Of a stretch of 32,860 bases of DNA, positions 3,119-29,565 are shown one piece after another (within the stretch, counting starts at the first letter, position 1; each line of letters begins with the position of its first letter). The stretch covers positions 1-32,860 of the forward strand of contig JAEUPH010000002.1 of assembly GCA_016790395.1 (NCBI GenBank). Direction: 5' to 3'. Both the position numbers and the translations under genes were made by a program. The DNA is from Rubrivivax sp. (GTDB lineage: Bacteria; Pseudomonadota; Gammaproteobacteria; Burkholderiales; Burkholderiaceae_C). The notes under the pieces were generated by a model. The model had not been told where the DNA came from. It saw nothing but the letters and a program-made list of their open reading frames with translations, and ran no database searches.

Positions 3119-4422
3119 AACGCCACCCAGGGCCCGTCATCGGCCAGCGCCTGGCCCCAGATCGACGTGAACACGCCGCGCCCGAAGAAGAAGGGCAGGC
3201 CCCAGACGAAGGCGCCGGCGTTGGCCGCACCGGCGGCGCCGCCCAGGTTGGAGAAGGCCACGTTGGGCGAGGCGAACAGCAGGTCGGCGCTGGCGATGCT
3301 GAAGTCCACCGTGCTGCTGTTGCCGAAGGGGTCGCTGAGCACCGCCTGCCGGGCCTGCGCGCTGGCCGGGCAGTACCAGGTGGAGCCGGCACCGCTGCCG
3401 ACGCAGCGCGTGGGCAGGTTGGCGTCGTCGAAGAAGAGGCCGTTGGAGCCGCTGTCCACATAACTGAACGGGTAGCTCTGCGTGCCGACGCGGGTGTGGA
3501 CGTACAGGTAGTCGTCGGCGCCGGGGTCGGTCTGCACGCGCAGCAGCGCGGCGGCCAGCGGCAGCTGGTTGTTGGCCTGCGTGCCGATGCCGAAGACCAG
3601 CCGCCCGCGCACCACCGAGGCGCCGGTGGCCGGCACCGCCGGCAGGACGATCAGCGTGCCGTTGTTGTTGCTGGCGAAGTGCACCACCGGGTTCTGCACC
3701 TGTTCGTCGGCCGGCACGGCGGTGCCGCGGCAGCCGGTCGCATCGCAGCGGTGGTAGAGCGTGACGCTGCCGGTGTAGTCGCCGGTGGCGCACATCAGGC
3801 CGCAGTCGTAGCGCAGCATGCCGATGCCCAGCACCCCCTTGGCCTGCAGCGTGCCGATGGACTTCAGCAACTCGCCGTTGGCGGCGGCCACGCAGTCGGC
3901 GGTGACGGCCGGTTGCTGCACGTCGCCGTCGTCGATCAGCTGCACGGGGATGTTGGCGGCCCGCTCGCCGGCGATGGCCAGGTCGGCGCGCGCCAGCGGG
4001 CCCCAGACCGCGCCCACGACGAAGGGGAAGCACTCGGCCACCGTGGCACCGCCCTGCGTCACGGCCGGCAGGTTGAGGCCGGCGACGGCGCTCTTCAGCA
4101 CGCGGAACCCGATCGAGCCGGTGTCGAGGAAGACGTGGTCGATGGTCGCGCAGGCCGTGGTGGAGCCGGGCGCGCACACCGTCACCGTGACGTAGGGCAG
4201 GTTGGTGACACCCAGCGAAAAGCCTTGCGCCGGGCCGTTGTCGACGACGATCTCGGTGGTGTTGCTGCCGCTGGGTTCGCTGAGCGTGACCTCCGGGCCG
4301 GCGACGCCGGGCGTGACGCCGTCGCAGTTGCCGACGCAGCGCGTCTCCACGCTGTTGCCGCCGCCGCCGCAGCCGGCCAGCACCAGCAGCGCCAGCGCGC
4401 TGAGCCGTTCAGCGCAGCGCAT
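3115..4422 (-). CDS. DUF3443 lipoprotein with two aspartic-protease-like D-T/S-G-S motifs
   Basis: Predicted lipoprotein of 435 residues. The signal peptide ends in lipobox LAGC with acyl-Cys at C18, followed by a Gly/Ser spacer. The body matches DUF3443 as I recognise it: multiple cysteine pairs, FLDTGSIGFRVL around D100-S103 and YVDSGSNGLFF around D323-S326. The two Asp-Thr/Ser-Gly-Ser motifs about 220 residues apart, together with GVLGIGML (about 197-204) and a late WGLPFFFG segment, look like a two-lobed pepsin-type fold. Catalytic activity is unproven. The start overlaps the DUF2844 gene by 14 bp, and this gene is the last of the minus-strand multihaem operon. DUF2844 and DUF3443 commonly occur together in Burkholderiales. 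Its role here is unknown; processing or surface anchoring of the cytochromes is possible. Confidence 0.85.
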   Translation of the reverse strand: MRCAERLSALALLVLAGCGGGGNSVETRCVGNCDGVTPGVAGPEVTLSEPSGSNTTEIVVDNGPAQGFSLGVTNLPYVTVTVCAPGSTTACATIDHVFLDTGSIGFRVLKSAVAGLNLPAVTQGGATVAECFPFVVGAVWGPLARADLAIAGERAANIPVQLIDDGDVQQPAVTADCVAAANGELLKSIGTLQAKGVLGIGMLRYDCGLMCATGDYTGSVTLYHRCDATGCRGTAVPADEQVQNPVVHFASNNNGTLIVLPAVPATGASVVRGRLVFGIGTQANNQLPLAAALLRVQTDPGADDYLYVHTRVGTQSYPFSYVDSGSNGLFFDDANLPTRCVGSGAGSTWYCPASAQARQAVLSDPFGNSSTVDFSIASADLLFASPNVAFSNLGGAAGAANAGAFVWGLPFFFGRGVFTSIWGQALADDGPWVAF

Positions 4423-4879
4423 CGATGCCCAGGCCCGCGGGCCACAGCGACTTCAGCCAGGCCCGGCCCACGTGCGCGTTCAGGTGCGCCGTGCTCTCCA
4501 CCACCAGGTCGCCCTGCGCGATGCGCGCCGTGTGAGACACGCCGGCGCGCTGCGCCTGCGCCTGCCGGCCGCCCTCGGCGTAGGCGGCGAAGTGGGTGCC
4601 CAGCAGGGTGTCCAGCCGCGGTTTGGCCGGCGTGTTCCAGGCCACGGCAAAGACGCGGCCCTCAGGCGTGGCGAACTGTCGGATGTGGCCGCCGCCCGGC
4701 AGCTTCAGCACCTGCACCTGGACCTGCGGCGTGGAGTTGGCGTTGGCGCGGCGCGCGGCACCCAGGCGCAGCGCGTCGGCCTGCACGCTGGCCAGGTCTT
4801 CGCCCAGCGTGGCGCGGGCCGCCGGCGTCAGCAGCACCGCGGCTGCGCCGAACAGCAGCGTGCGCCTACTTGCGTTCAC
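4409..4879 (-). CDS. DUF2844 family exported protein
   Basis: Exported protein of 156 residues and unknown function. An N-terminal signal peptide (twin Arg followed by LLFGAAAVLL, ending near ATLGE) precedes a domain resembling DUF2844. The GTG start at 4879 was chosen because the signal peptide begins there; a longer in-frame reading from 4963 would add an implausible Arg/Trp-rich extension. It overlaps the upstream TPR gene by 14 bp and the downstream DUF3443 gene by 14 bp. The ready pairing with DUF3443 supports the call. No catalytic motif or haem-binding motif is visible. An envelope accessory to the electron-transfer locus is the best guess. Confidence 0.75.
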   Translation of the reverse strand: MNASRRTLLFGAAAVLLTPAARATLGEDLASVQADALRLGAARRANANSTPQVQVQVLKLPGGGHIRQFATPEGRVFAVAWNTPAKPRLDTLLGTHFAAYAEGGRQAQAQRAGVSHTARIAQGDLVVESTAHLNAHVGRAWLKSLWPAGLGIDALR

Positions 4880-5870
4880 GCGAGATCTCCAGCGCCAGGC
4901 CGCTGCTGCCCAGCGGCACGGGCGCCAGTTCGCCTTCCAGGTCGCCGGGCGCGGGGATGGCATCGCCGCGGCGCGACACCCGCACGCCGACGATCACGCG
5001 CGGATGCTGCGACAGCCGCGCCTCGCGCGTCATGGCCAGCGTGTCGTCGAGCGCGAAGTCCACCGGCAGGTCGCGCCCGCGCTTCTTCAGCAGGGCCACC
5101 GGCATGCGCGAGCCTTCGGGCGGGCGCGCGAAGATGAACACCGTGTCGTCGGGGCCGACCTTGTCCTTCAGCGCCGCGGCCACGGTCACGCGGCCGGCGA
5201 CGAAAGTCTGGCCCACGGCGCCCGATGCGGCCTGGCCCGGCGACAGCAGCGCGCGGGCCTCGGCGATGCTGGTGGTGATGGGGCCGCGCAGGCGTTCGTC
5301 AGGCGCGGTTTTCGCGGCGCGTTCCCAGAAGCCGATGGCTTCGGCGTAGCGGCCACGTTCGAAGGCCTCCTTGCCGGCCAGCACCAGGGCCTTCAGGTTG
5401 GTCGGTTCCAGTTCCAGCGCGCGCGCAATGAGCTTGGCGGGTTCGCCCTGCAAGCGGCCCTGCTGGGCCACGCCCAGGGCGTCGGCGAAGTCGGCGTGGG
5501 CCTGGGCGTCCTGCGGGCGCAGCTTGAGCAACTGCCGGTAGGCCTGGGTCGCTTCTTCGAAGCGGCCGGCCATCTCGGCCGTGTGGGCCAGCATGGCCCA
5601 GGCCGCGGCGTCCTTCGGGTCGCGCTGGGTGTCCTCGCGCGCGCGCTCCAGGCCCCGCTGCACCTGGCTGGCGGACAAGGGCGCGGGGGCCGCCGAGGAT
5701 GCGGCGGCCGCCGGGGCCGGGGCCGCCGTCGGCGGGGCGGGTGGCGCTGGCGATCGGCGCGTGCCGAACCACAGCGCCGCGGCGGCCACCAGCACCAGCA
5801 GCGCCACGGCGGGCAGCAGCCGCTGCCGCGCCGGGCGGTCTTCAGAAGAGTTCGTAGCGGTATCCGACAT
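4866..5870 (-). CDS. Membrane-anchored TPR protein with CcmI/CycH-like C-terminal domain
   Basis: A 334-residue protein with one N-terminal transmembrane anchor (about 18-36), an Ala/Pro linker (40-65), TPR-like helices (about 72-190) and a C-terminal beta domain (about 222-332). The C-terminal domain is clearly paralogous to that of the CcmI-like protein encoded at 24890-26101: both share AALK-K-PDD-VF-FAR, GSRMP-ALL, DLP, a LDD-AM segment and a final LALEI/LSLEI. CcmI proteins hold apocytochrome c and pass it to the haem ligase, so a dedicated chaperone for the adjacent multihaem proteins is a natural inference. ATG 5870 was preferred, but an in-frame ATG at 5894 is possible; neither has a clear Shine-Dalgarno. 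The start overlaps the end of the barrel gene, and the stop overlaps DUF2844. Confidence 0.82.
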   Translation of the reverse strand: MSDTATNSSEDRPARQRLLPAVALLVLVAAAALWFGTRRSPAPPAPPTAAPAPAAAASSAAPAPLSASQVQRGLERAREDTQRDPKDAAAWAMLAHTAEMAGRFEEATQAYRQLLKLRPQDAQAHADFADALGVAQQGRLQGEPAKLIARALELEPTNLKALVLAGKEAFERGRYAEAIGFWERAAKTAPDERLRGPITTSIAEARALLSPGQAASGAVGQTFVAGRVTVAAALKDKVGPDDTVFIFARPPEGSRMPVALLKKRGRDLPVDFALDDTLAMTREARLSQHPRVIVGVRVSRRGDAIPAPGDLEGELAPVPLGSSGLALEISRERK

Positions 5871-8040
5871 AGAAGAACGTGGAGTTCGAATCATCGCGGC
5901 TGCTGGGGCCGCGCGTCTTCGAGGTCTCGTAGAGCAGCTCGCCCAGCAGGCTGGCGCGCCGGGAGGCGCGCCACGACAGGCGCAGCCCGGGGCCGATGCG
6001 GGTGATGCTGACGTCCTGCTGGTCGGTCTGGCGGTACAGGCGCAGCGAGGGCTCGATCGTCAACTCGTCGTTGCCGGCCCATCCCGTGAGGTTGTTGATG
6101 GAGAACTGCACGCCCTTGAACGCCGGGGTGGTGATGACGCTCAGGTTGAAGTTGTTGATGTCGCGCTTGCTGTAGAGGTTGGTGCCGGTGAGCTGGCCGC
6201 TCCAGCTGACCTGCGCGCCCGTGGCCGGCGTGGCCGCGAAGTCGCCCACGGCGGGCAGGGCGCCGACCTGGCTCCAGCGCAGGTCGGTGGACATCTGCCA
6301 CTTCTCCGACAGCGGCCGCGCCACGCTGACGAGGAACTGCTCGGCCGTGGCCGAAGTGTCCAGCGCCCGCTGGCGCACCGTGGCCAAGCTCTCGCCGGGC
6401 CGCTCGAGCAGTTCCTTCAGCGATGCCGCGCCCGAGGAGATGAGCGCGTTGGTGAGCTGCAGGGAAGGCGCGCGGCGCTGGTCGGCCAGCAGCGTCAGCG
6501 TGGTCTGGCCCGCGAACTGGAAGCTGCCGTGCACCGACAGGGCGTTGAGTTTCTTCGTCACGCTCTCGTAGTCGGCCAGCGTGTTGAGCGACCAGCGCTC
6601 GCCGGCATAGCGCAGCTCGGCGCCGATCGCGCGGCGGTTGGTGATGCCCTGCGTGCTCTGCTGCAGCAGGTAGAGGTTGCCGCCAAAGCGCTCGGCGAAG
6701 CTGTCCACTTCCAGCACGCTGGCGAAGAGGCGCTCCGAGGGCGCCGTGACCAGCGCGCTGGCCGGCACGCCGCCCATGATGTCGAGCTTCACGCCGTCGC
6801 GGATGGGGTAGACCAGCGAGATGCCGTCGAACAGGCCCAGCAGGCCGCCGCTGATCGGGCTCTGGCGCCCGGCGCGCACGGCCAGGCCGCCCACCGCGCC
6901 ACCGCCGCCGAAGCGATGCTCGGCATAGGCGGCGCTTACCGAACTGCTGCTGCGGCCATCCTTGAGCAGGTTCTTGGCGCCCGAGCCGCGCAGCACGGCG
7001 CGGGTCTCGGCGGCGTCGGTGCCTGCCTTCGCATCGCGCCAGCGCGCCGAGAGGTCGAAGCTGGTGACGATGGCCGATTCCGTGGTGCGGCTGAGCGTGG
7101 CCTGGTCGATGCCGGTGGCGATGCTCACCAGCGACTGGCTGCGCGCCTTGCCGCCGTAGTAGTACTGGGCGATGGAGCCGCTCAGCACCTTGGGCGGTGG
7201 CGGCGGCGCCGTCGGGGCGGCGGCCTCGGCCGTGCGTGGCGCCGGGGCGCCACCGAGCCCGGCCAGCTTCTGCTGCACACGCAGCGCGCCCTCGCCCTGC
7301 GGGTACAGGCGCAGGTACAGCGCGTACTCGGTGCGCGCGCGCTCGGCGTTGCCGGCCTGCTCCCAGGCCCGGCCGATGAGTTCCTGGGCCGTCTGCGACT
7401 GCGTGTTGGGCGGCAGCTTGAGCAGCTGGTTGAGCAGCGTGATGGCGGTGTCGGGCTGTTGCCCCAGCAGCGCGGCGCGGGCGCGTGTCATCAGCGCCGC
7501 CGCTTCGGTCTCCACCTCGGGCGTGGCCGTGGTTTCCGGCCCGGGGGCGGCGGCAGCCGGGGGCACCGCCACCGGCACCGGCGCTGGCGGCGCCGAAGCG
7601 GCCGCTGCCGGCGCGGGCACGGCCTCGGCGGCCGGACGGAAGACCAGTTCCAGCGAGCGCGCGTTCGGGCCCTGGCGGCCCTGCACGGCCATGGCGCGGC
7701 CCAGGCGCACGGTGAGCTGCTTGATGCGGCTGGCGGGCTCGGGCTGGTAGGTGACGCTGAGGTCGGGCAGGCCGTCGGCGCCGACCAGGCGCCGCGTCTC
7801 GCTGGCCGTCTGGCGCAGCACGGGCTCGTCGGCCGACAGCATCTCGAAGCGCAGCGTGTACAGGTCGGACGTGCCGCCCGGCAGCAGGGTGACGAAGCCG
7901 ACCGACGCGTTGAAGCGGATGCGCACGACGCGGTTCTCGCCCTGCGGACGCACGTCCACGTCGTCCAGCGATTGCGCGAGGGCGCTGCCAGCCAGCAACA
8001 GCCCGAGGAGCACGAAGGCGCGGCGCAGCAGTCTGGTCAT
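5842..8040 (-). CDS. Outer-membrane beta-barrel protein with N-terminal AMIN/TPR region
   Basis: A 732-residue exported protein. Signal peptide with cleavage near ALA-QS (about 22). Residues 24-135 form a beta-rich domain reminiscent of AMIN-like domains. A Pro/Ala linker spans about 137-178, TPR-type helices about 180-262, a second Pro-rich linker about 265-284, then 285-732 of alternating amphipathic strands ending in YRYELF with terminal Phe, the usual signature of a Bam-inserted barrel. About 450 residues would allow roughly 18-22 strands (estimate). Its ATG overlaps the stop of the giant cytochrome (ATGA, 8037-8040), so the two are translationally coupled. By position it could be the porin that sheathes or anchors the haem chain, analogous to MtrB/PioB, but it does not visibly resemble them. 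No haem motifs. Confidence 0.8.
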   Translation of the reverse strand: MTRLLRRAFVLLGLLLAGSALAQSLDDVDVRPQGENRVVRIRFNASVGFVTLLPGGTSDLYTLRFEMLSADEPVLRQTASETRRLVGADGLPDLSVTYQPEPASRIKQLTVRLGRAMAVQGRQGPNARSLELVFRPAAEAVPAPAAAASAPPAPVPVAVPPAAAAPGPETTATPEVETEAAALMTRARAALLGQQPDTAITLLNQLLKLPPNTQSQTAQELIGRAWEQAGNAERARTEYALYLRLYPQGEGALRVQQKLAGLGGAPAPRTAEAAAPTAPPPPPKVLSGSIAQYYYGGKARSQSLVSIATGIDQATLSRTTESAIVTSFDLSARWRDAKAGTDAAETRAVLRGSGAKNLLKDGRSSSSVSAAYAEHRFGGGGAVGGLAVRAGRQSPISGGLLGLFDGISLVYPIRDGVKLDIMGGVPASALVTAPSERLFASVLEVDSFAERFGGNLYLLQQSTQGITNRRAIGAELRYAGERWSLNTLADYESVTKKLNALSVHGSFQFAGQTTLTLLADQRRAPSLQLTNALISSGAASLKELLERPGESLATVRQRALDTSATAEQFLVSVARPLSEKWQMSTDLRWSQVGALPAVGDFAATPATGAQVSWSGQLTGTNLYSKRDINNFNLSVITTPAFKGVQFSINNLTGWAGNDELTIEPSLRLYRQTDQQDVSITRIGPGLRLSWRASRRASLLGELLYETSKTRGPSSRDDSNSTFFYVGYRYELF

Positions 8041-11000
8041 GGCCCCGATTTCGGCGGCACCGGCACCGGACGCGTGCGCGGGTTGCCGTGCAGCTGGCGC
8101 GGGATCACTTCACCGTTGGTGACGTGGCAGCTCACGCAGGTGGGGCGGTCCACCATCGGCTGGTAGGCGGGTGACAGGTGCTGGTAGCGCACGGGCTGCC
8201 AGGCCAGCGGCTTGTGGCAGGCGTCGCAGCTGCGCACGCTGACGAAGTGGTTGCCGGGGCGGCCGCTGGCGTCCACGCCGTTGTGGCAGGCGGCGCACTG
8301 GCCGGCGCTGTTCGTCGGGTGCGTGAAGACGGCCGGCGTCCAGGCCGTGCTGCGGTGGCAGGCATCGCAGGACAGGCGCGGGGCGTAGTGCTTCGCCGGC
8401 CGGCCCTTGGCCATCTGGCCGTTGTGGCAGCTCTGGCACTGGCCGGCGGTGACGCCACGGTGGTCGAAGCGGCGCGCACCGCCCGTGCCCGGCAGCAGGC
8501 CCGGCGTCAGCGCCTCGCGCGGCAGCAGGCGCGGCAGTGCGGCGTTCACGGCGGCGCGCATCACCGGGCGGATGCGTGCGCGGTCGTTGAACTTGATCTC
8601 CACGCGGTGGCACTCGTCGCAGTCGTGCGGCGGCTTGCGCGCGGCGGTCTGGTGGTCGCCGGGCTTGCGGGTCTGGATGTTGGGCGTGCCGAACCACACG
8701 TAGGGGTACTCGTGGCAGCTCATGCAGGTGAAGGCCGCCACCGCCGTGTGCGAGGGGTTGATGGCGTTCGTCGTCGGCTTCATCTTCATGCCACTGAAGG
8801 TGGTGAAGTTGGTCGCCGAGTGGCACTTCTCGCAAGCCACCGTGCCCACCGGGATGTGCGTCAGCGCCGAAGGTGCCGTGGGCGAGCCGCCCGGGGCCAG
8901 CGGCATCTGCTTGACGACATAGGTCAGCGGCACCGGCGTCGGGCAGTTGGCCTGCGTGCTGCAGCCGGCGAAGGGGCCGGCCGCATGGCAGGTGCGGCAG
9001 GCCGTCGACTTGAGGTCGGTGTTGTTGTGCATCGCCGTGTTGTTCGTCAGGCCCTGCACCGAGAAATCGCCCGGCACGATGTGGCAGGCCGAGCAGCTGC
9101 TGTTCGTGGGGATGTGTCCGTTGGGCTTGGTGGCGCCGTCGAAGTAGGTGGTGCCGGTGTGGCACTGGCCGCAGTCGCCCGTGGCTGGGTGGGCGGCGTC
9201 CTTGATGGCGTAGGTGCTGCCGGCGGCGGTGGGCCGCGTCTGGAAGCCCTTGTACTGCGCGCCGCTGGTCAGCGTCGCCGGCGTGATCGGGTAGGCGCCC
9301 ATGCCCATCCACACGTAGCCGGTGTCGTGGCAGGCGTTGCAGTTGCCGCTGATGCCGTTGTGGATCTGCGCACCGGTGGGGGCGGGCGTGGCCCAGCCCG
9401 TGCCGGGCGGCGTCCGCGTCGCCGAGGCCGGGATCAGCCCCGAGGGCACGCTGCCCAGGTGGCAGGCCTCGCAGACGGTGCTGGAGGGGATGTGCGAGCT
9501 GGCTCCCACCGGCGAGGTGGGCGGCATGCCGCTGAGCCTGCTGATGCCGGCGAAGTTCGTCACCGTGCCGCTGGGCACGTGGCACTGGACGCAGTCCTTG
9601 GTGATGCCGGCGTGGTTCATGCGCGAGCCGCTGAACTTCGCGCCGTTGGGCACCGGCGTGGCCGTGATCGAGGAACCGGCGCCGACGTGGCAGACCTCGC
9701 AGGAGGCCGTGGTCGGGATGTGGTTCGAGGGCAGGCCGACGATGCTGAAGTTGGCCGACGGGATGGCGAAGGAGGCTGCGTTGGCGCCGTGGCACTGCGC
9801 GCAGTTCGTGCTGGTGCTCTGTGCGTTGGCGTGGATGTCGGCCAGCGTGGGCATGGCCGCGTAGTCGCTGCTCTTGTGGCAGGCCGTGCAGGCGGCGCTG
9901 GCCGCATAGGGGATGTGGTTGGCCGGCTTGTCCACGCCGACGAAGGCCGTGGTGTTGGTGTGGCACAGCGAGCACTCGCCCGTGGTCGGGTGGCCGGGGT
10001 CGGCCACGGCGTAGGTGCCGCCGCCGGCGCGCGGCCGCGTCTGGAAGCCCTTGTACTGCGCGCCTGCCGTCAGCGTGGCGGGGGTGATCGGGTAGGCGCC
10101 CATGCCCATCCACACCATGCCGGTGTCGTGGCACGACGAACACCCGCCGCTGACGCCGGCGTGGATCTGCGCGCCCGTGGGGGCCGGCGTGGCGAAGCCG
10201 CTGCCCGGCAGGGTGGCCGTGGCCGAGGCGTTCACCAGGCCGGCGGGCACGCTGCCCAGGTGGCAGCTCTCGCAGACGGTGGACGAGGGGATGTGCGACG
10301 TGGCGCCCACCGGGGTGGTGGGCGGCATGCCGATGATGCGGCTGATGCCGGCGAAGTTCACCGCCGTGCCGGCCGGCACGTGGCAGGTGGCGCAGTCCTT
10401 GGTGATGCCGGAGTGGCTCATCTTCGAGCTGCTGAACCGGGCGCCGTTGCCCACCGGCAGCGCGCTGATGGAGGAACCTGCGCCGACGTGGCAGACCTCG
10501 CAACCGGCCGTGGTGGGGATGTGGTTGCTCGGTTTGCCGACGATGCTGAAGCCGTTGGCCGGGATGGCGAAGGAAGGCGCCGCGTCGCCGTGGCACTGCA
10601 CGCAGTTGGTGGTGGTGCTCGGTGCGTTGGCGTGGATGTTGGCCAGCGTGGGCATCGCCGCGTAGTCGGTGCTGGTGTGGCAGCTGCTGCACTGCGCCGT
10701 GGCGGCGTAGGGGATGTGGTTGGCCGGCTTGTCGACGCCGGTGAAGGCCACCGTGCTGCCGTGGCAGCGGCTGCAGTCGTCGGTGCTGGGGTGGGCCGGG
10801 TCGGCCACGTTGTAGGGGCCGGCGGCGGCGCGCGGGCGCGTCTGGAAGCCCTTGTACGAGGCCCCGGGCGTGAGCGTGCTGGGCGTGATCGGGTAGGCGC
10901 TCATGCCCATCCACACGTAGCTGGCTTCGTGGCAGGCACTGCAGCCGCCGCTGACGCCGGCGTGGATCTGCGCCCCCGTGGGCGCCGGTGTGGCGAAGGC

Positions 11001-14000
11001 CGTGCCGGGTGCCGTCTTCGTGGCCGATGCGGGGATGAAGCCGCTGGGCATGCTGGCCAGGTGGCAGGTCTCGCAGGTGGTGGACGAGGGGATGTGCGAG
11101 GTGGCGCCCATCGGGCTCGTCCGCGGCATGCCGACGATGCGCGTGATGCCCGCGAAGCTGGCCGTCGTGCCGGCCGGCACGTGGCAGTTCACGCAGTCCT
11201 TGCTGATGCCGGCGTGATTCATCAGCGAGTTGCTGAACTTGGCGCCGTCGGTGACCGGCAGCGCGGCGATCGACGAACCCGGCCCGACGTGGCAGACCTC
11301 GCAGGAGGCCGTCGTCGGAATGTGGTTGGCGGGCAGGCCGACGATGCTGAAGCCCGCGGCGGGGATGGCGAAGGACGGTGCCGCCGCGCCGTGGCACTGC
11401 GCGCAGTTCGTGGTGGTGCTGGGCGCCCAGGCGTGGATGTTGGTGAGCGTGGGCATCACCGAGTAGCTGGTGCTGGTGTGGCAGGCGTCGCAGGTGGCGG
11501 CCGGGTTGTACGGAATGTGGTTGGCCGGCTTGTCCACGCCGGTGAAGGCGGTGGTGCTGCCGTGGCACTGGCTGCAGTCGCCCAGCGCGGGGTGGGCGGG
11601 GTCGGCGACGTTGTAGGTGCCGGCGGCGGCGCGCGGGCGCGTCTGGAAGCCCGTGTACTGGGCGCCCGGGCTCAGCGTGCTGGGGGTGATCGGGTAGGCG
11701 CTGACGCCCATCCACACCATGCCGGTGTCGTGGCAGGCGTTGCAGCCGCTGGTGATGCCGCTGTGGATCTGAGCGCCCGTCGGTGCCGGCGTGGCGAAGC
11801 CGGTGCCGGGCGCCGTGCGGGTGGCCGAGGCGGGGATCAGGCCCGCGGGCAGGCTGCCGAGGTGGCAGCTTTCGCAGGTGGTGGACGAGGGGATGTGCGA
11901 GGAGGCGCCCGCCGGGCTGGTGGGCGGCATGCCGACGATGCGCGTGATGCCGGTGAACGCGGCCGTGCTGCCCGCCGGCTGGTGGCAGGCCACGCAGTTG
12001 TTCGTGATGCCGGCGTGGTTCATCGCCGAGTTGCTGAACTTCGCGCCATCGCCCACCGGCAGCGCCGTGATCGACGAGCCGCCGCCCACGTGGCAGACCT
12101 CGCAGGACGCGCTGGTCGGGATGTGGTTGGCCGGCAGGCCCACGATGCTGAAGCCGATGGCCGGGATGGCGAACGAGGGGGCCGCCGCGCCGTGGCACTG
12201 CGCGCAGTTGTGGGTGGTGCTGGGTGCCCAGGCGTGGATGTTCGCCAGGCTGGGCATCACGGCGTAGTCCGTGGACGTGTGGCAGCTGCTGCACTGCGCC
12301 GCGGCGTTGTAGGGAATGTGGTTGGCCGGCTTGTCGACGCCGCTGAAGGCGACGGTGCTGGCGTGGCACTGGCTGCAGTCGCCCGTGGCGGGGTGAGCGG
12401 CGTCGGGCACGCTGGTGGCACTGCCGGCGGCGCGCGGGCGTGTCTGGAAGCCGCGGTACTGCGCGCCGGGAATCAGCGTCGTCGGCGAGATCGGGTAGGC
12501 GCCCATGCCCATCCAGAGGTAGCCGGCCTCGTGGCAGGCGTTGCAGCCGCCGGTGATGCCGCTGTGGATCTGCGCCCCGCTGGGCGCCGGCGTGGCGAAG
12601 CCGGTGCCCGGCGCGGTGGCGGTGGCCGAAGCGGGGACCAGCCCTGCCGGCATGCTGGCCAGGTGGCAACTCTCGCAGTTGGTGCCTGAAGGGATGTGCG
12701 ACGACGCGCCCGGCGGGCTGGTGGGCGGCATGCCGACGATGCGCGTGATGCCGGCGAAGCTGGCCGTGCCGCCCGCCGCCTGGTGGCAGGCCACGCAGTT
12801 GCCGCCGATGCCGGCGTGGCTCATCTTCGAGCCGCTGAAGCGCGCCCCGTCCACCACCGGCAGCGCCGCGATGGACGAGCCGGCGCCGACGTGGCAGACC
12901 TCGCAGGAGGCGCTGGTCGGGATGTGGTTGGCCGGCAGCCCGACGATGCTGAAGTTGGCGCCAGGGATGGCGAAGGACGGTGCCGCCGCGCCGTGGCACT
13001 GCGCGCAGTTGCTGGTGGTGCTGGGCGCGTTGGCGTGGATGTCGGTGAGGCTGGGCATCACCGCGTAGTCGGCCGCCTTGTGGCAGCTGTTGCATTGCGC
13101 GCTGGCGGCGTACGGGATGTGGTTGGCGGGCTTGTCGATGCCGCTGAAGGCCACCGTGCTGGCGTGGCACTGGCTGCAGTCGCCGGTGAGCGGGTGCGCG
13201 GCGTCGGCGATGCTGTAGGTGCCCCCGGCGGCACGCGGCCGCGTCTGGAAGCCGCGGTACTGCGCACCGGCGGTGATGACCGAAGGCGTGATGGGGTACG
13301 CGCCCATGCCCATCCACACCAGGCCCGCTTCGTGGCAGGTGTTGCAGCTGCCGGTGACGCCGGCGTGGATCTGCGCGCCCGTGGGGGCCGGGCTGGCGAA
13401 GGCCGTGCCCGGCGCCGTGGCGGTGGCCGATGCGGGCACGGGGCCGGCCGGCACGCTGCCCAGGTGGCAGGCTTCGCAGACCGTGGACGACGGGATGTGC
13501 GCGCTGGCCCCGGCCGGGCTGGTGGGCGGCATGCCGACGATGCGGGTGATGCCGGCGAAGGCCGTGGTGGCGCCGGCGGGCTGGTGGCAGGCCACGCAGT
13601 TCTTCGTGATGCCCGTGTGGCTCATCGTGGAGCCGCTGAAGCGGGCGCCGTCCAGCACCGGCAGCGCGGCGATCGACGAGCCCGGCCCCACGTGGCAGAC
13701 CTCGCAGGAGGCCGTGGTGGGGAGGTGGTTGGCCGGCAGCCCGACGATGCTGAAGTTGCTGGCCGGGATCGCGAAGGACGGTGCCGCCGCGCCGTGGCAC
13801 TGCGCGCAGTTGCCGGTGGTGCTGGGCGCGTTGGCGTGGATCGCGGTCAGCGTGGGCGGCCGCTTGTAGTCGCTGGTCGTGTGGCAGGCGTTGCAGGTGG
13901 CGCTGGCGGCGTAGGGGATGTGGTTGGACGGGATCGTCACGCCGGTGAAGGCCGTGGTGCCGGCGTGGCAGGCCACGCAATCGCCGCTGGCCGGGTGAGC

Positions 14001-17000
14001 GGGGTCGGCGACGTTGAAGGTGCCGGCGGCGGCGCGCGGGCGCGTCTGGAAGCCGGTGTAAGAGGCGCCCGGCGTCAGCGTGCTGGGCGAAATCGGGTAG
14101 GCGCCCATGCCCATCCACACCATGCTGGCCTCGTGGCAGGCGACGCAGCCGCTGGTGACGCCGGCGTGGATCATCGCGCCGGTGGGTGCGGGTGTCGCGA
14201 AGCCGGTGCCCGGGAAGGTCTTGGTCGCCGAGGCCGGGATCAGCCCGCTGGGCACGCTGCCGAGGTGGCAGCTCTCGCACTTCGTCGACGACGGGATGTG
14301 CGCGTTGGGGCCGGGCGGGCTGGTCAGCGGCATGCCGACGATGCGCCCGATGCCGGCGAACTGCAGCCCGCTGCCCGAAGGCGCGTGGCAGGCCACGCAG
14401 TTGCTGCTGATGCCGGCGTGGCTCATCAGCGAGCCGCTGAACCTGGCGCCGTCCAGCACCGGCGTGGCGGCGATGGACGAACCCGCGCCGACGTGGCAGA
14501 CCTCGCAGGAGGCGGTGGTGGGGATGTGGTCCGCCGGCATGCCCGGCACGCTGAAGTTCGTGGCCGGGATGGCGAAGGAGGCGGCGGCCGCGCCGTGGCA
14601 CTGCGCGCAGTTGGTGCTGGTGCTGGGCGCGTTGGCGTGGATCGCGGTGACCGTGGGGCGCACCGCGTAGTCGTTGCTGGTGTGGCAGCTGTTGCACTGC
14701 GCCGTGGCGGCGTAGGGGATGTGGTTGGCCGGCTTGTCCACGCCGGTGAAGGCGGTGGTGTTGGCGTGGCACTCCGAACAGTCGCGGCCCACCGGGTGCG
14801 CGGGGTCGGCGATGCTGGTGGCGCTGCCGGCCGCCCGCGGCCTTGTGTGGAAGCCGGTGTAGGAGGCGCCGGCGGTGAGCGTGGCGGGCGAGATCGGGTA
14901 GGCGCCCATGCCCATCCACACCAGGCCGGCCTCGTGGCAGCTGTTGCAGCCGCTGCTGATGCCGGCGTGGATCATGGCGCCGGTCGGCGCGGGCGTGGCG
15001 AAGCCGGTGCCGGGGGCCGTCTTGGTGGCCGACGCCGCGATCAGGCCTGCCGGCACGCTGCCCAGGTGACAGCTTTCGCAGGTGGTGCTGGAGGGAATGT
15101 GCGCCTGCGCACCCGCCGGGCTGGTGGGCGGCATGCCGACGATGCGCGCGATGCCGGCGAAGGCCGCACTGCTGCCCGCTGGCACGTGGCAGCTGGCGCA
15201 GTTCGTCGTGATGCCGGCGTGGCTCATCAACGAGCCGGCGAACTTCGCGCCGTTGCCCACCGGCAGCGCGGCGATGGACGAGCCCGCGCCCACGTGGCAC
15301 ACCTCGCAGGAAGCCGCCGTGGGGATGTGGTTCGTCGGCAGGCCGACGATGCTGAAGTTGTTGGCCGGGATCGCGAACGAAGCTGCCGCGGTGCCGTGGC
15401 ATTGCGCGCAGTTGGTCGTCGTGCTGGGCGCGTTGGCGTGGATGTCGGCCAGCGTCGGCGTGATGGTGTAGTCGCTGCTCTTGTGGCAGCTGTTGCACTG
15501 CGCCGTGGCGGCGTAGGGGATGTGGTTGGCCGGCTTGTCGACGGCGGTGAAGGCCACGGTGCTGCCGTGGCACTGGCTGCAGTCGCCGTTCAGCGGGTGC
15601 GCAGGGTCGGCCACGTTGAAGGTGCCGGCGGCGGCACGCGGCCGCGTCTGGAAGCCCTTGTACTGCGCGCCCGGCACCAGGCTCGTCGGCGCGATCGGAT
15701 AGGCGCTCATGCCCATCCACACGTAGCCGGCCTCGTGGCAGGCGTTGCAGCCGCTGGTGACGCCGGCGTGGATCTGTGCCCCCGTGGGCGCGGGCGTGGC
15801 GAAGCCGGTGCCGGGCGCGGTCTTGGCGGCCGAGGCCGGGATGAAGCCCACCGGCAGGCTGCCGATGTGGCAGCTCTCGCAGACCGTGGACGAGGGGATG
15901 TGCGAACTGGTGCCCGGCGGGTTGGTGGGCGGCAGGCCGATCAGCCGCGCGATGCCGGCGAAGCTGCTGCTGTTGCCGGCCGGCAGGTGGCAGCTGGCGC
16001 AGTCCTTGTTGATGCCGGCGTGGTTCATCAGCGAGCCGCTGAACTTCGCGCCGTCGCCCACCGGCAGCAGCGAGATCGACGAGCCCGGCCCGACGTGGCA
16101 GACCTCGCAGGAGGCCGTGGTGGGAATGTGGTTCGCGGGCATCCCGACGACGGCGAAGCCGTTGGCGGGAATGGCGAAGGACGGTGCCGCCGCGCCATGG
16201 CACTGGGCGCAGTTGCCGGTGGTGCTGGGCGCGTTGGCGTGGATGTCCGCCAGGCTGGGCATCACGGCGAAATTGCTGCCCTTGTGGCAGGCGTTGCAGG
16301 CCGCGTTGGCGGCCGTCGGGATGTGGTTGGCCGGCTTGTCGACGGCCGTGAAGGCCGCCGTGCTGCCGTGGCACTGCACGCAGTCGCCCGTGGCCGGGTG
16401 CGCGGCGTCGGCCACGCTGGTGGCGCTGCCGGCCGCGGTGGGCCGCGTGTGGAAGCCCTTGTACTGCGCGCCGACGGTGATGACGGCGGGCGAGATGGGG
16501 TAGGCGCCCATGCCCATCCACACCAGACCGGCCTCGTGGCAGGCGTTGCAGCCGCCGGTGACGCCGGTGTGGATCATCGCGCCGGTGGGCGCGGGGCTGG
16601 CGAAGCCGGTGCCCGGTGCCGTGGCCGTGGCCGAGGCCGGCACGAAGTCGGCCGGCCGGCTGGCCAGGTGGCAGGTCTCGCAGGTGGTGGACGAGGGGAT
16701 GTGCGCGTTCGGCCCGGCCGGGCTGGTGGCCGGCATGCCGACGATGCGCGTGATGCCGGCGAAGGCGGTGGCACTGCCTGCGGGCTGGTGGCAGGCGTTG
16801 CAGCCGTTGCTGATGCCGGCATGGCTCATCAGCGAGCCGCTGAACTTGGCGCCGTCGGTCACCGGCGTGGCCGCGATGGACGAGCCCGGGCCGACGTGGC
16901 ACACCTCGCAGGAGGCGTTGGTCGGGATGTGGTTGGACGGCAGCCCGACGATGGCGAAGTTGTTGGCCGGGATGGCGAAGGACGCCGCCGCCGCGCCATG

Positions 17001-18446
17001 GCACTGCGCGCAGTTGCTGCTGGTGCTGGGCGCCCAGGCGTGGATGTTGGTGATGCTGGGCATCACCTGGTAGTTGCTGCCGCTGGTGTGGCAGCTGGTG
17101 CACTGCGCCGTGGCCGCGTAGGGGATGTGGTTGGCGGGCTTGTCCACGCCGCTGAAGGCGCTGGTGCTGCTGTGGCACTGGCTGCAGTCGCCCGTGGACG
17201 GGTGGGCCGGGTCGGCCACGGCGAAGGCGCTGCCGCCCGCCGTGGGGCGCGACTGGAAGCCGCGGTACTGCGCGCCCGGCGTCAGCACCAGCGGCGTGGC
17301 GGGGTAGGCACCCAGGCCCATCCACACCATGCCGGTGTCGTGGCAGGTGTTGCAGCCGCCGGTGATGCCGCGGTGGATCTGCGCCGACGAAGGCGCCGGC
17401 GCGGCGAAGCCGGTGCCGGGGGCGGTCTTCGTGGCCGAGGCCGGCACCGGCAGGGCCGGCGTGCTGGCCAGGTGGCAGGCTTCGCAGGGCGCTTCGGTGG
17501 GGATGTGCGCGCCGGCGCCCGGGGGCGCCGTGGGCGGCATGCCGACGATGGCGCTGATGCCGGCGAAGCGCGCCGTGCTGCCGGCGCGCTGGTGGCAGGC
17601 GTCGCAGCCGCTGCTGATGCCGACGTGGCTCATCAGCGCGCCGGAGAACTTCGCGCCGTTGCCCACCGGCAGGCTGGGCGTGCCCGTGCCGGGGCCGGCG
17701 TGGCAGGTCTCGCAGGCGCCGGTGGTGGGCAGGTGGTCGGCCGGGAAGCCGACGACGCTGAAGTTGGCCGACGGGATGGCGAAGGACGCCGCCGCCGCCG
17801 CGCTGTGGCAGCTGGCGCAGCCGGAAGTCTGCGTCGGGGCGTTGGCGTGGATGTCCGCCAGCGACGGGATGACCGAGAAGTTCGGGCTGCGGTGGCAGGC
17901 GCTGCAGGAGGCGCCGGGCCGCGTGGGGATGTGGTTGGCCGGCTTGGCCGCCGCCGGCAGGAAGGCGGTGGTGACGTGGCACTCGTCGCAGGACGCGATG
18001 GTGGCCGGATGGCCGTTCGGCTTGCCGCGGCCACGCACGTTGTCGTGGCAGCCGGCGCAGCCGCCGGGGGCCACGCCGGTGTGCCTGAACATCACCGACG
18101 AGAAGCCGTTGACGCTGTGGCAGGCGTCGCAGGCCTCGGTGGTCTGGATGTGCAGGTTGGGCATGGCCACCGCACCGCGCGTGTTGTTCTGCGCGTGGCA
18201 GGTGGCGCAGTCGCGCGGCGTGCCCTTGAAGATGCCGCGTTGGTGGCAGGCCTCGCAGCGCACGTCCTCGTGCTTGCCGCGCAGCGGGTAGCCCGTGGCC
18301 GTGTGGTCGTAGCTGCTGGCGCTCTGCGCGAAGGACGGGGACGCGAAGGCGAGCAGCGCGAGCAGCACGAGGCCCAGCCACGCGCGCAGCCAGGCTGCGT
18401 GCCGCTCGGACGTCTTCATTGCTGCGTGTGCCGCGAAGGCCTGCAT
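8037..18446 (-). CDS. Giant multihaem cytochrome c with 92 CXXCH motifs
   Basis: An exported c-type cytochrome of about 3469 residues. I counted 92 CXXCH motifs by reading through the protein, about one per 38 residues. Order: signal peptide ending near SFAQS; an N-terminal four-haem section; 11 copies of a 7-haem unit of about 267 residues (haems 5-81); a diverged C-terminal section (haems 82-92). Inside a unit the seven motifs have fixed followers such as CSQCH..AF, CAQCHGAAAPSFAIP, CEVCHVG and CNACHEAG-VWMGMGAYP. Non-motif His residues occur about once per haem (NHIP, IHAN, NHIP, SHAG, AHIP, IHAG, AHP), as expected for bis-His ligation. The repeats are poor in charged residues and rich in Ala, Ser, Thr, Pro and Gly. 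ATG 18446 was chosen because GGGGAAGAGG precedes it; ATG 18419 gives a shorter signal peptide and remains possible. Probable periplasmic-to-extracellular electron carrier. Confidence 0.93.
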   Translation of the reverse strand: MQAFAAHAAMKTSERHAAWLRAWLGLVLLALLAFASPSFAQSASSYDHTATGYPLRGKHEDVRCEACHQRGIFKGTPRDCATCHAQNNTRGAVAMPNLHIQTTEACDACHSVNGFSSVMFRHTGVAPGGCAGCHDNVRGRGKPNGHPATIASCDECHVTTAFLPAAAKPANHIPTRPGASCSACHRSPNFSVIPSLADIHANAPTQTSGCASCHSAAAAASFAIPSANFSVVGFPADHLPTTGACETCHAGPGTGTPSLPVGNGAKFSGALMSHVGISSGCDACHQRAGSTARFAGISAIVGMPPTAPPGAGAHIPTEAPCEACHLASTPALPVPASATKTAPGTGFAAPAPSSAQIHRGITGGCNTCHDTGMVWMGLGAYPATPLVLTPGAQYRGFQSRPTAGGSAFAVADPAHPSTGDCSQCHSSTSAFSGVDKPANHIPYAATAQCTSCHTSGSNYQVMPSITNIHAWAPSTSSNCAQCHGAAAASFAIPANNFAIVGLPSNHIPTNASCEVCHVGPGSSIAATPVTDGAKFSGSLMSHAGISNGCNACHQPAGSATAFAGITRIVGMPATSPAGPNAHIPSSTTCETCHLASRPADFVPASATATAPGTGFASPAPTGAMIHTGVTGGCNACHEAGLVWMGMGAYPISPAVITVGAQYKGFHTRPTAAGSATSVADAAHPATGDCVQCHGSTAAFTAVDKPANHIPTAANAACNACHKGSNFAVMPSLADIHANAPSTTGNCAQCHGAAAPSFAIPANGFAVVGMPANHIPTTASCEVCHVGPGSSISLLPVGDGAKFSGSLMNHAGINKDCASCHLPAGNSSSFAGIARLIGLPPTNPPGTSSHIPSSTVCESCHIGSLPVGFIPASAAKTAPGTGFATPAPTGAQIHAGVTSGCNACHEAGYVWMGMSAYPIAPTSLVPGAQYKGFQTRPRAAAGTFNVADPAHPLNGDCSQCHGSTVAFTAVDKPANHIPYAATAQCNSCHKSSDYTITPTLADIHANAPSTTTNCAQCHGTAAASFAIPANNFSIVGLPTNHIPTAASCEVCHVGAGSSIAALPVGNGAKFAGSLMSHAGITTNCASCHVPAGSSAAFAGIARIVGMPPTSPAGAQAHIPSSTTCESCHLGSVPAGLIAASATKTAPGTGFATPAPTGAMIHAGISSGCNSCHEAGLVWMGMGAYPISPATLTAGASYTGFHTRPRAAGSATSIADPAHPVGRDCSECHANTTAFTGVDKPANHIPYAATAQCNSCHTSNDYAVRPTVTAIHANAPSTSTNCAQCHGAAAASFAIPATNFSVPGMPADHIPTTASCEVCHVGAGSSIAATPVLDGARFSGSLMSHAGISSNCVACHAPSGSGLQFAGIGRIVGMPLTSPPGPNAHIPSSTKCESCHLGSVPSGLIPASATKTFPGTGFATPAPTGAMIHAGVTSGCVACHEASMVWMGMGAYPISPSTLTPGASYTGFQTRPRAAAGTFNVADPAHPASGDCVACHAGTTAFTGVTIPSNHIPYAASATCNACHTTSDYKRPPTLTAIHANAPSTTGNCAQCHGAAAPSFAIPASNFSIVGLPANHLPTTASCEVCHVGPGSSIAALPVLDGARFSGSTMSHTGITKNCVACHQPAGATTAFAGITRIVGMPPTSPAGASAHIPSSTVCEACHLGSVPAGPVPASATATAPGTAFASPAPTGAQIHAGVTGSCNTCHEAGLVWMGMGAYPITPSVITAGAQYRGFQTRPRAAGGTYSIADAAHPLTGDCSQCHASTVAFSGIDKPANHIPYAASAQCNSCHKAADYAVMPSLTDIHANAPSTTSNCAQCHGAAAPSFAIPGANFSIVGLPANHIPTSASCEVCHVGAGSSIAALPVVDGARFSGSKMSHAGIGGNCVACHQAAGGTASFAGITRIVGMPPTSPPGASSHIPSGTNCESCHLASMPAGLVPASATATAPGTGFATPAPSGAQIHSGITGGCNACHEAGYLWMGMGAYPISPTTLIPGAQYRGFQTRPRAAGSATSVPDAAHPATGDCSQCHASTVAFSGVDKPANHIPYNAAAQCSSCHTSTDYAVMPSLANIHAWAPSTTHNCAQCHGAAAPSFAIPAIGFSIVGLPANHIPTSASCEVCHVGGGSSITALPVGDGAKFSNSAMNHAGITNNCVACHQPAGSTAAFTGITRIVGMPPTSPAGASSHIPSSTTCESCHLGSLPAGLIPASATRTAPGTGFATPAPTGAQIHSGITSGCNACHDTGMVWMGVSAYPITPSTLSPGAQYTGFQTRPRAAAGTYNVADPAHPALGDCSQCHGSTTAFTGVDKPANHIPYNPAATCDACHTSTSYSVMPTLTNIHAWAPSTTTNCAQCHGAAAPSFAIPAAGFSIVGLPANHIPTTASCEVCHVGPGSSIAALPVTDGAKFSNSLMNHAGISKDCVNCHVPAGTTASFAGITRIVGMPRTSPMGATSHIPSSTTCETCHLASMPSGFIPASATKTAPGTAFATPAPTGAQIHAGVSGGCSACHEASYVWMGMSAYPITPSTLTPGASYKGFQTRPRAAAGPYNVADPAHPSTDDCSRCHGSTVAFTGVDKPANHIPYAATAQCSSCHTSTDYAAMPTLANIHANAPSTTTNCVQCHGDAAPSFAIPANGFSIVGKPSNHIPTTAGCEVCHVGAGSSISALPVGNGARFSSSKMSHSGITKDCATCHVPAGTAVNFAGISRIIGMPPTTPVGATSHIPSSTVCESCHLGSVPAGLVNASATATLPGSGFATPAPTGAQIHAGVSGGCSSCHDTGMVWMGMGAYPITPATLTAGAQYKGFQTRPRAGGGTYAVADPGHPTTGECSLCHTNTTAFVGVDKPANHIPYAASAACTACHKSSDYAAMPTLADIHANAQSTSTNCAQCHGANAASFAIPSANFSIVGLPSNHIPTTASCEVCHVGAGSSITATPVPNGAKFSGSRMNHAGITKDCVQCHVPSGTVTNFAGISRLSGMPPTSPVGASSHIPSSTVCEACHLGSVPSGLIPASATRTPPGTGWATPAPTGAQIHNGISGNCNACHDTGYVWMGMGAYPITPATLTSGAQYKGFQTRPTAAGSTYAIKDAAHPATGDCGQCHTGTTYFDGATKPNGHIPTNSSCSACHIVPGDFSVQGLTNNTAMHNNTDLKSTACRTCHAAGPFAGCSTQANCPTPVPLTYVVKQMPLAPGGSPTAPSALTHIPVGTVACEKCHSATNFTTFSGMKMKPTTNAINPSHTAVAAFTCMSCHEYPYVWFGTPNIQTRKPGDHQTAARKPPHDCDECHRVEIKFNDRARIRPVMRAAVNAALPRLLPREALTPGLLPGTGGARRFDHRGVTAGQCQSCHNGQMAKGRPAKHYAPRLSCDACHRSTAWTPAVFTHPTNSAGQCAACHNGVDASGRPGNHFVSVRSCDACHKPLAWQPVRYQHLSPAYQPMVDRPTCVSCHVTNGEVIPRQLHGNPRTRPVPVPPKSGP
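9174..17990 (-). repeat. Eleven in-frame tandem units (801 or 804 bp), each encoding 7 haem sites
   Basis: Measured from one equivalent CXXCH to the next, unit boundaries (high coordinate, minus strand) fall at 17990, 17186, 16382, 15581, 14780, 13979, 13178, 12377, 11576, 10775 and 9974, with the array ending at 9174. The first two units are 804 bp (one extra codon each, at different places) and the other nine are exactly 801 bp. Units are similar but not identical, and sequence variants are shuffled between them (for example GTFNVADPAHP versus SATSVADAAHP after the seventh motif), which suggests recombination or gene conversion. The repeat is protein-coding throughout; it is not a CRISPR or satellite. 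Long near-identical repeats make copy number prone to assembly error and to real variation. Confidence 0.95.
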
Positions 18447-18568: not shown

Positions 18569-19978
18569 CTAGGGCCTCGTACCGCGCTTGAGTCGCTTCC
18601 AGTTCTCGTTGTCGTGGCACTGCTCGCAGCGGCGGCCGAAGTTACCTTCGTGTACATCGTCCTTGCGGTGGCAGGCCATGCAGTCGCTGCCCACGGGCGC
18701 GGCCTTGCGGCCGGGCGGCGCCGGCTGCGTGTGGCAGGCCTCGCAGGTGATGCGCCGGTGCTTGCCTTCCAGCCGGAAGCGCGTGCCGCGGTCGTGGTCG
18801 AAGTCCCACAGCGTCCAGGCGCGGACGTTGTGGCAGTTTTCGCATTGCGGCCCGAGCGCCGCCTTGTGGCGGTCGTCCTTGCGGTGGCAGCCGTAGCAGT
18901 CGCGCGGCGCCTCGCGGTAGCGCAGGCTCTGGTGGCAGGCCTTGCACGCCACCACCAGGTGGCCGCCGACCAGCGGGTAGCGCGTCTTCGCATGGTCGAA
19001 GCGCGGCACGCGCCAGTTCAGGTCGCCATGGCACTGCTCGCACTTCTCGCCCAGCGTGGCCTCGTGGCGGTCGTCGCGCTTGTGGCAGCTGAAGCAGGCG
19101 GTGGGGGTGTTCTTGAAGTGCCGCGGCGACTCGTGGCAGTCCGTGCACTTCACCGTCCTGCTGGCATGCGCATTGCGCAGCGGGAACTTGGTCTTGTCGT
19201 GGTCGAAGCTGCCGGGCAGCAGCGTCTTCCAGTTCTGCTCGCCGTGGCAGCTCTCGCACTTGTCGCCGAGCGTGCCACCGTGCTTGTCGTCCTTCTTGTG
19301 GCAGTCGATGCAGCGCGTGGGCGCGCCCTTGAAGTGCGCGTTGTCCTCGTGGCACTGCTTGCAGGGCGTGTCGACGTGCTTGCCCCTCAGCGGGAACTTC
19401 GTCTTCTGGTGGTCGAAGCCGGCCGGTTCCTTCCAGCCGCGCTCGGTGTGGCACTTGGCGCAGTCGCGGCCCAGGGTGTCCTTGTGCTTGTCGTCCTTCT
19501 GGTGGCAGTCGATGCATGTCTTGCCGGTCTTCTTCGCGTACAGCGGCGTGGTGTGGCAGGCCGAGCACTTCACCTGCCGGTGCTTGTCCTTCAGCAGGTA
19601 GCGCGTGTCGGTGTCGTGGTTGAACTGCGAGGGCTTCCAGGCCTTGGTGCCGTGGCAGGTCTCGCACTTCTCGCCGTACTGGCCCTTGTGGCCCTTGTCG
19701 TCGTCTTCCTTGCGGTGGCAGCCGATGCACGTGCGCGGCGTGTCCTTGTAGCGCTGGTCGACGTGGCAGGCGTCGCACTTGGCGTCGATGTGCTTGCCGG
19801 TCAGCGCGAAGCGCGTCTTGTCGTGGTCGAAGCGCGTGGTCTTCCAGTCGCGGGCGCTGTGGCAGTCCTCGCACTTGGCGCCCAGGCTGCCCTTGTGCAC
19901 GTCGTCCTTGCGGTGGCAGCCGTCGCAGCTGAGCGCGGCTTCGCGCCAGCGCTTGCCGGCGACGTGGCACTTGGCGCA
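18569..19978 (-). repeat. Seven tri-haem protein repeats inside the 24-haem cytochrome
   Basis: Haems 4-24 fall into seven consecutive triplets with period about 67-74 codons, beginning at the CAKCH codons whose first base is 19978. Each triplet ends in a W-containing stretch and an FDH...GKH segment. The repeats are more diverged in sequence and length than the 801-bp units of the giant gene, suggesting an older expansion. Confidence 0.85.
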
Positions 19979-21275: not shown

Positions 21276-21456
21276 GGCGAGCGACAACGGAGCCGAGCAG
21301 GCTCACCTGGGTTGTTTGCACTTTCAATCCAGTCTAGGGTTCACTCGCCGGCATTGATTAAGCAAAAGCTCATGCAAGGGCCTCGCTTTACAGTCGTTAC
21401 GTGCAGGCCTGCGGGCTTGTGACATCTGCGTCAGCCAGCACCCCCAAGATCGGCCC
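21276..21456. promoter_or_regulatory. Divergent intergenic region, probable bidirectional promoter
   Basis: A 181-bp gap between the membrane cytochrome b gene (minus) and the flavoprotein gene (plus), the largest non-coding stretch in the window and visibly more AT-rich in the middle. TTGATTAAGCAA at 21354-21365 is a 12-bp imperfect palindrome containing the hexamer ATTAAG (21357-21362), related to the paired box at 18510-18526. It also contains an FNR-like half-site TTGAT, but the second half does not match. No confident -35/-10 pair was found on either strand. Confidence 0.45.
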
Positions 21457-29098: not shown

Positions 29099-29565
29099 TT
29101 GCTCATCTCCGACATGCCCTTGCCCGCCTTCTCCATGTGCTTGCGCACCTGCTCGGCCTTGGCCACCGCGTCGGCGGCCTCGGGCGGCATGTAGTTCTCG
29201 TCGTGCTTGGCCAGCACCTCGCGCGCGACGAACACGCCGTCGGGGCCGAGCTGCCCCTGCGCGACCACGCCCTTGCCTTCCTTGAACAGGTCGGGCAGCA
29301 CGCCGTCGTACTTCACCGGCACGGCCTTGCCGGTGTCGGTGACGTTGAAGCGCACGGTGACGCCCTCGCGCACCACGGTGCCGGTTTCCACCATGCCGCC
29401 GACGCGGAAGGTGCGGCCGGTGGGCGCTTCCTTGTCCGCGATCTGGGTCGGCGTGTAGAAGAACACCAGGTTGCTGCTGAAGGCGTTGAGCACCAGTCCG
29501 GCTGCAGCCCCCACGGCCACCAGCACACCCACCACGATGGCAGCTCTCTTGTGACGCGGCTTCAT
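29095..29565 (-). CDS. ccmE: Periplasmic haem chaperone CcmE
   Basis: A 156-residue OB-fold haem chaperone with an N-terminal membrane anchor (about 7-27). The covalent haem-binding site is [12 protein letters not shown], with H121 as attachment residue and Y125 as axial ligand, so it is the standard His-type CcmE. A strong Shine-Dalgarno AAGGAGG precedes the ATG. The start overlaps the ccmD stop by 4 bp, and the stop overlaps the ccmF start by 4 bp. Confidence 0.96.

Follow-up and report, generated by a model that had tools for sequence, protein, structure and literature searches.

The outer cytochrome of the MtrCAB conduit of Shewanella carries ten haems per chain, and the OmcS, OmcE and OmcZ cytochromes of Geobacter conduct electrons outside the cell through closely packed c-type haems arranged in non-covalent polymers of small subunits. 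A further group of porin-cytochrome complexes, PCC3, is widespread and figures among the candidate iron oxidases. In the description of He et al. (2017; PMC5566968), PCC3 cytochromes have at most 85 haem-binding motifs (median 34 in the extracellular and 21 in the periplasmic protein) and are accompanied by a membrane protein of about 300 amino acids that has five helices, an SGXXG motif on the fourth and WX3HX13H motifs on the third and fifth. Reported motif numbers run from 10 to 35 for the PCC3 extracellular cytochrome of Gallionellaceae (PMC10734462) and from 10 to 57 for Leptothrix and Sphaerotilus (PMC13386937), while gene neighbourhoods with over a hundred motifs have been noted among about 60,000 assemblies (PMC11475568). 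Archaeal cytochromes with 86 (PMC9012536) and 113 haems (PMC7082337) have also been described. Extracellular electron transfer by PCC3 is described as untested in PMC12442390.

Here, a stretch of 32,860 nucleotides from Rubrivivax sp. (the window) was analysed, for which an earlier note had claimed a polypeptide with 92 c-type haem motifs. The protein proves to be a new and large addition to PCC3 rather than a new kind of cytochrome, with a haem number that falls within the known range, close to its upper end. It is probably the extracellular cytochrome of the complex, with a chain that would reach out of the cell.

Reading frame and motif count

A regex count over all six frames of the window located 92 CXXCH motifs in one long minus-strand frame (8037-18521), bearing out the claim of 92 such motifs in a single polypeptide; CX3CH and CX4CH motifs were absent from that frame. 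The start proposed in the earlier note (18446) lies in the same frame, at residue 26, but the likelier start is residue 35 (position 18419), which by eye immediately precedes a signal peptide like those found in five relatives. Translation from 18419 leaves the motif total at 92 and yields a predicted extracellular multihaem cytochrome of 3460 amino acids (8037..18419, minus strand) whose signal peptide, again judged by eye, is without a lipobox. The calculated mass is 346 kDa for the polypeptide read from this start, to which haem would add 57 kDa for a total near 403 kDa. Shuffled residues yielded on average 0.55 motifs, and never more than 5 in 2000 trials, versus the 92 observed; the GC3 of the frame is 0.97. 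Translation from the first GTG gives the longest frame, in which 2 of 186 cysteines fall outside the motifs, and the 99 histidines outside the motifs would be enough to supply one distal ligand per haem.

Gene neighbourhood and identity of the complex

The cytochrome gene stands in a minus-strand series with the order membrane protein, 24-haem cytochrome, 92-haem cytochrome, barrel, CcmI-like protein, DUF2844 protein and DUF3443 protein, the first four of which are the four PCC3 genes in order. The inner-membrane protein (20367..21287, minus strand), a predicted di-haem cytochrome b, has five hydrophobic regions, WX3HX13H motifs at residues 99 and 281 and SGXXG at residue 140, and the motif residues are invariant in 10 sequences. 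Its gene is overlapped by 26 nt by that of a lysine-rich, presumably periplasmic cytochrome with 24 CXXCH motifs (18569..20392, minus strand), for which no sequence relatives were found in the PDB. The residue-to-haem ratios, 37.6 for the 92-haem chain and about 24 for the 24-haem protein, lie within the published PCC3 range of 22-39. The fourth gene (5842..8040, minus strand), whose start overlaps the stop of the 92-haem cytochrome by 4 nt, encodes a predicted outer-membrane barrel with an N-terminal TPR domain; its AlphaFold2 model (mean pLDDT 76.9) has 22 strands in residues 285-730, and the 50 Foldseek matches listed are outer-membrane barrels, albeit with low TM-scores (0.17-0.29 by query). 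A relative of this porin was present in all ten genomes chosen for long extracellular cytochromes. The gene neighbourhood supports an extracellular place for the 92-haem protein. The item in the earlier note was silent on the operon, which identifies the 92-haem protein, and on the adjacent 24-motif frame.

Downstream of the barrel lie genes for a CcmI/CycH-like apocytochrome chaperone (4866..5894, minus strand), which is a second copy, and a DUF2844 protein (4409..4963, minus strand). The CcmI-like gene follows the porin in five of ten extended relatives and is not, therefore, a constant part of the system. The other copy, at 24890-26101, belongs with the System I cytochrome c maturation genes (24890..31947, minus strand), mentioned as context only; CcmI and CcmF were identified by profile, and CcmG, CcmC, CcmB and CcmA by eye from the translations. 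The cluster is flanked by two response regulator/sensor kinase pairs, one on each side (972-1754 and 1751-3118, plus strand; 24200-24871 and 22791-24203, minus strand). Both kinases have a 2CSK_N domain, and the pairs may regulate the system. Near the contig start, ahead of the left response regulator, is a di-haem cytochrome c (Pfam DHC; 15-377, plus strand) that may be truncated.

The seven-haem unit array

The 92-haem protein is laid out as an N-terminal cap, eleven tandem units of 267 or 268 amino acids with seven CXXCH motifs each (9174..17990, minus strand), and a C-terminal cap. Motif spacings within the unit are 28, 29, 34, 36, 40, 44 and 56 residues, the 56-residue one being the longest; units 1 and 2 show a one-residue difference. 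One unit with its seven haems would weigh about 31 kDa. In the nine units, out of eleven, that have exactly 267 amino acids, 125 columns are invariant, including 14 cysteines and 14 histidines, i.e. the seven motifs plus seven other histidines, which would fit seven bis-His haems. The modular seven-haem unit is among the points that look new.

The array could conceivably be an artefact, either of an assembler that multiplied repeats or of a frame that is merely the shadow of another, given that the source assembly is fragmented (75% complete, 353 contigs) and that the high-GC DNA carries long opposite-strand frames at 8178-12689 and 12696-18476. However, the 92-haem gene contains no exact direct repeat of at least 60 nt, which makes mis-assembly unlikely even in such an assembly, and DNA identity between equal-length units is 69-83%. 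Moreover, the motifs and histidines are conserved, the GC3 is high, and the same layout and motif total recur on an 890-kb contig of Rubrivivax sp. A210, so that an artefactual origin is barely credible. A search with TRF (periods up to 500) did not reveal the 801-nt array.

An AlphaFold2 model of three units, made with 31 alignment rows, was unusable (mean pLDDT 47, pTM 0.25) and was used neither for a fold search nor for a length claim, and a unit profile found no sequence relatives in the PDB at E ≤0.01. The earlier note had envisaged an extended chain of around 70 nm; the product of 92 haems and 7.8 angstrom is about 72 nm, which is arithmetic only, with a spacing borrowed from another protein. 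Furthermore, at its 37.6 residues per haem the chain is less densely haem-packed than shorter-unit PCC3 cytochromes. Given the failed unit model, the borrowed spacing and the lower haem density, no figure for chain length is supported.

Haem numbers among relatives

Scanning of genome contigs with the membrane-protein alignment yielded 395 relatives, from which 80 loci were kept; for ten loci with long cytochromes a longer stretch was taken wherever the contig permitted. In Rubrivivax sp. A210 (L085/L121) the giant cytochrome has 91 CXXCH motifs and one CX4CH; that of Burkholderiales MAG REEB380 (L030/L122) has 105+1 motifs, and two other relatives have 90 and 78+1. Both the A210 and the REEB380 loci encode the membrane protein, 24-motif cytochrome, giant cytochrome and porin, with gene order and unit as in the window, although in A210 no CcmI-like gene follows the porin. 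Across the relatives, the central region is built of units of approximately 47 amino acids with two motifs, approximately 158 with six, or 267 with seven, or else is long and irregular; repeat motifs in the shorter-unit cytochromes are mostly 20-34 residues apart. Two loci, L102 (8944-13449) and L108 (12568-16149), have arrays with 59+1 and 44+1 motifs in which the haem spacing alternates almost regularly between 24 and 23 residues, a simpler arrangement than the seven-haem type.

The extracellular cytochrome ranges from 11 to 106 motifs, with a median of 35, in 33 complete frames from the 80 loci (CXXCH plus CX3CH or CX4CH; loci L033 and L036 have two frames each, counted as found, the gene of L058 was not completed, and L102, with 59+1 motifs, stands outside the 33, having been moved by the lysine filter). 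The periplasmic partner has exactly 24 motifs in 68 of 74 complete lysine-rich frames. The other six have 21, 27, 9 and 15 (the last two both from L067), 59 and 13, of which the 59- and 13-motif frames are, by elimination, the extracellular frames of L102 and L106. A fixed 24-haem inner cytochrome combined with a variable outer haem number looks new, and is what would be expected if only one of the two proteins has to bridge a fixed distance. That motif number varies so widely among PCC3 loci would also suit a protein that is mainly an electron store, a capacitor rather than a wire, whose haems buffer a shortage of acceptors or donors, and storage has already been suggested for PCC3 (PMC10734462). 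Such a role can be added to conduction, but alone it leaves the conserved barrel and periplasmic partner unexplained, and as the main function it is considered improbable. Separately, 31 of 64 extracellular-cytochrome frames (loci L029-L108) run off the end of a contig or locus, and public counts of giant cytochromes are consequently probably too low.

In a tree built from 50 of 76 units, representing seven proteins, there were 8 label changes against 32.4 in shuffles, indicating that, overall, units cluster by protein. Two C-terminal A210 units grouped outside their own array, and three window units grouped, with weak support, with those of L053; only 5 of 47 inner branches reached at least 95, so that single joins are weak. 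Since the units cluster mostly by protein and not by position, the arrays appear to have been largely homogenised or expanded lineage by lineage.

DUF3443

The last gene of the series encodes a DUF3443 protein (3115..4422, minus strand) with a lipobox and DTGS and DSGS motifs. In the window and in all ten extended long-unit loci (six seven-haem, four irregular) a DUF3443 gene is found past the porin, versus none of the 17 loci of shorter type with at least 2 kb after the porin, and all 11 of 11 sequences retain both D[ST]G[ST] motifs. Two such motifs are the pattern of pepsin-like aspartic proteases, and DUF3443 may accordingly be an uncharacterised pepsin-like lipoprotein family; no mention of the name was found in the literature searched.

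These associations, together with the 56-residue inter-unit stretch being the longest spacing, could be read to mean that the giant cytochrome is a polyprotein, cut by DUF3443 within the 56-residue stretches to free seven-haem pieces that assemble or are shed. Against this, the protease activity is putative, judged by motif, and no PDB sequence match to DUF3443 was found; the family also occurs apart from PCC3, in three of 51 genomes without a strong membrane-protein match; and roles in anchoring or folding fit equally well. Processing of this kind is considered very improbable.

A co-inherited flavoprotein

Divergent from the inner-membrane gene in the window is a gene for an FAD/NAD(P) flavoprotein (21457..22770, plus strand) with two ferredoxin motifs and, by eye, an N-terminal hydrophobic stretch. 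The motifs, C-x-G-S-x2-C-x3-CPE and CIGHGAC-x3-CP, are invariant in 34 aligned sequences, with serine and histidine at the position of the second cysteine of the classical ferredoxin motif. Among 61 genomes, the flavoprotein was found in all ten that have the membrane protein (on a common contig in nine of them) and in none of the other 51. The same pattern was seen in 250 genomes of the order (14 of 14 versus 0 of 236, with the two genes always adjacent and divergent) and again in 299 from the phylum (4 of 4 versus 0 of 295), where the four include one genome of another order, with the genes on two contigs, and one of another class; the three sets overlap and are not independent. Thresholds for the membrane protein were >140 bits, E 1e-20 and E 1e-15 for the 61-, 250- and 299-genome sets, respectively, and those for the flavoprotein E 1e-60, 1e-60 and 1e-50, with at most 28, 6 and 5 flavoprotein candidates scored per genome, such that misses are not absolute. 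The two proteins are on different contigs in G004 and G336.

Five weak membrane-protein matches in the 61-genome set (G058, G037, G039, G022 and G019; E 1e-10 to 9e-4, 27-33% identity) were excluded from these counts. With them included, giving 15 positives, the flavoprotein is present in 10 of 15 versus 0 of 46; frames near the weak matches have 6-8 motifs (short loci), three being cut by the locus end. As a rough control in the 61 genomes, DUF3443 occurs in three of ten positive and three of 51 negative genomes (G016, G024 and G043), and so tracks the membrane protein less closely than does the flavoprotein. In the 80 loci, the flavoprotein lies in the fetched flank of 29. Fifty genomes without it there were examined (L091 was omitted, being from the same assembly as L065), and 47 have a match elsewhere, three of them partial (G612, G602 and G586), with no match in G581, G607 and G615; some of the 50, for example G067, carry it just past the fetched flank.

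A term search of the main texts of PCC3 papers did not find a component of the flavoprotein type, and among the matches listed for NADPH-linked extracellular electron transfer with multihaem proteins there was no title on a PCC3-flavoprotein system. He et al. (PMC5566968) noted that in some PCC4 clusters an iron-sulphur gene adjoins that for the membrane protein, and that other membrane proteins of this type have a different redox protein as neighbour. A redox partner as such therefore has a precedent, and it is the co-inherited flavoprotein that looks new. It offers a concrete handle on the inner end of PCC3 and on the direction of electron flow.

Direction of electron flow

In the mechanism proposed here, the NAD(P)H-linked FAD/iron-sulphur protein on the cytosolic side would hand electrons to the di-haem b membrane protein, the 24-haem cytochrome would bridge the periplasm and meet the 92-haem chain at the barrel, and the latter would extend beyond the cell, conducting and storing electrons in a single chain whose length is set by the number of seven-haem units. 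Electrons moving outward would go to minerals, humic matter or partner cells. That the flavoprotein feeds the di-haem b protein, with outward as the usual direction, is a proposal from gene content for which the case seems to us evenly balanced. NAD(P)H is a low-potential donor, with which outward flow would be easier, contrary to the inward quinone model. Reduction of NAD(P)+ by Fe(II) at neutral pH is uphill, and for this reason also the co-inherited protein fits outward flow better than inward. The flavoprotein could, however, serve maturation instead of acting as an electron donor, and quinones, as in the proposal of He et al., may still be the partners of the membrane protein.

He et al. 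modelled the opposite flow, with Fe(II), Mn(II) or solid donors supplying electrons that PCC3 delivers to the quinone pool. Several iron oxidisers have PCC3 and the membrane protein of the published model is a quinone-active cytochrome b (PMC5566968), and one PCC3 inner-membrane gene is up with iron-oxidising ability in strain CL21 (PMC12442390). Conversely, both PCC3 clusters of Sideroxydans ES-1 are down on Fe(II) (PMC8788666), which, with the fit of the flavoprotein to outward flow, leaves inward transfer possible but doubtful. A point against the explanation preferred here as a whole is that Slit_1448, the PCC3 extracellular cytochrome of ES-1, has the value 0 in each of the eight proteome columns given in PMC12016527. 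The flavoprotein partner makes the published quinone-linked model testable.

The fuller form of the outward mechanism, a five-part, NAD(P)H-driven PCC3 in which the quinone pool is bypassed and electrons pass from the flavoprotein via the di-haem b protein and the 24-haem bridge to a modular outer wire, is put forward tentatively and may well need revision. Similarly tentative are two of its particulars, namely that the flavoprotein would be membrane-anchored with unusual cluster ligands, and that the wire would vary in unit steps, of seven haems in this type, to more than 100 haems.

Comparison with known systems

The earlier note compared the protein with MtrC, OmcZ and OmcS and proposed an electron conductor. 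A multi-haem conductor is indeed the best reading, but the comparison set was too narrow, since a PCC3 cytochrome with 85 haems and the 86- and 113-haem archaeal proteins were already in print. The likeness to MtrCAB lies in a trans-outer-membrane conduit with an outer cytochrome and in Pfam Mtrc-MtrF_II-IV domain matches above cut-off in the 92-haem protein, although the OmcA/MtrC family model TIGR03507 scored 114.4 bits, below its cut-off of 209.3. The seven-haem units differ from the OmcS and OmcZ filaments in that no PDB chain is related to them by sequence (E ≤0.01). It has been suggested in a Gallionellaceae pangenome study (PMC10734462) that a long PCC3 cytochrome may beat a wire of OmcS-like subunits in speed. 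The S-layer cytochromes reported for ANME and Methanoperedens are likewise single chains with about 90-110 haem motifs, but these are archaeal and have an S-layer domain fused to the haem region, whereas the Pfam scan of the present locus gave no S-layer family.

The closest likeness is to the PCC3 systems of He et al. (2017) and of Sideroxydans, Leptothrix and Gallionellaceae, with which the locus shares a porin, two multihaem cytochromes, a five-helix di-haem b protein, a low residue-to-haem ratio and Ser/Thr/Ala/Gly-rich repeats. It differs from published PCC3 in the additional CcmI-like, DUF2844 and DUF3443 genes, in the co-inherited flavoprotein, and in the arrangement of 92 motifs in 267-residue, seven-haem units, which would lend themselves to building single-chain conductors of defined length.
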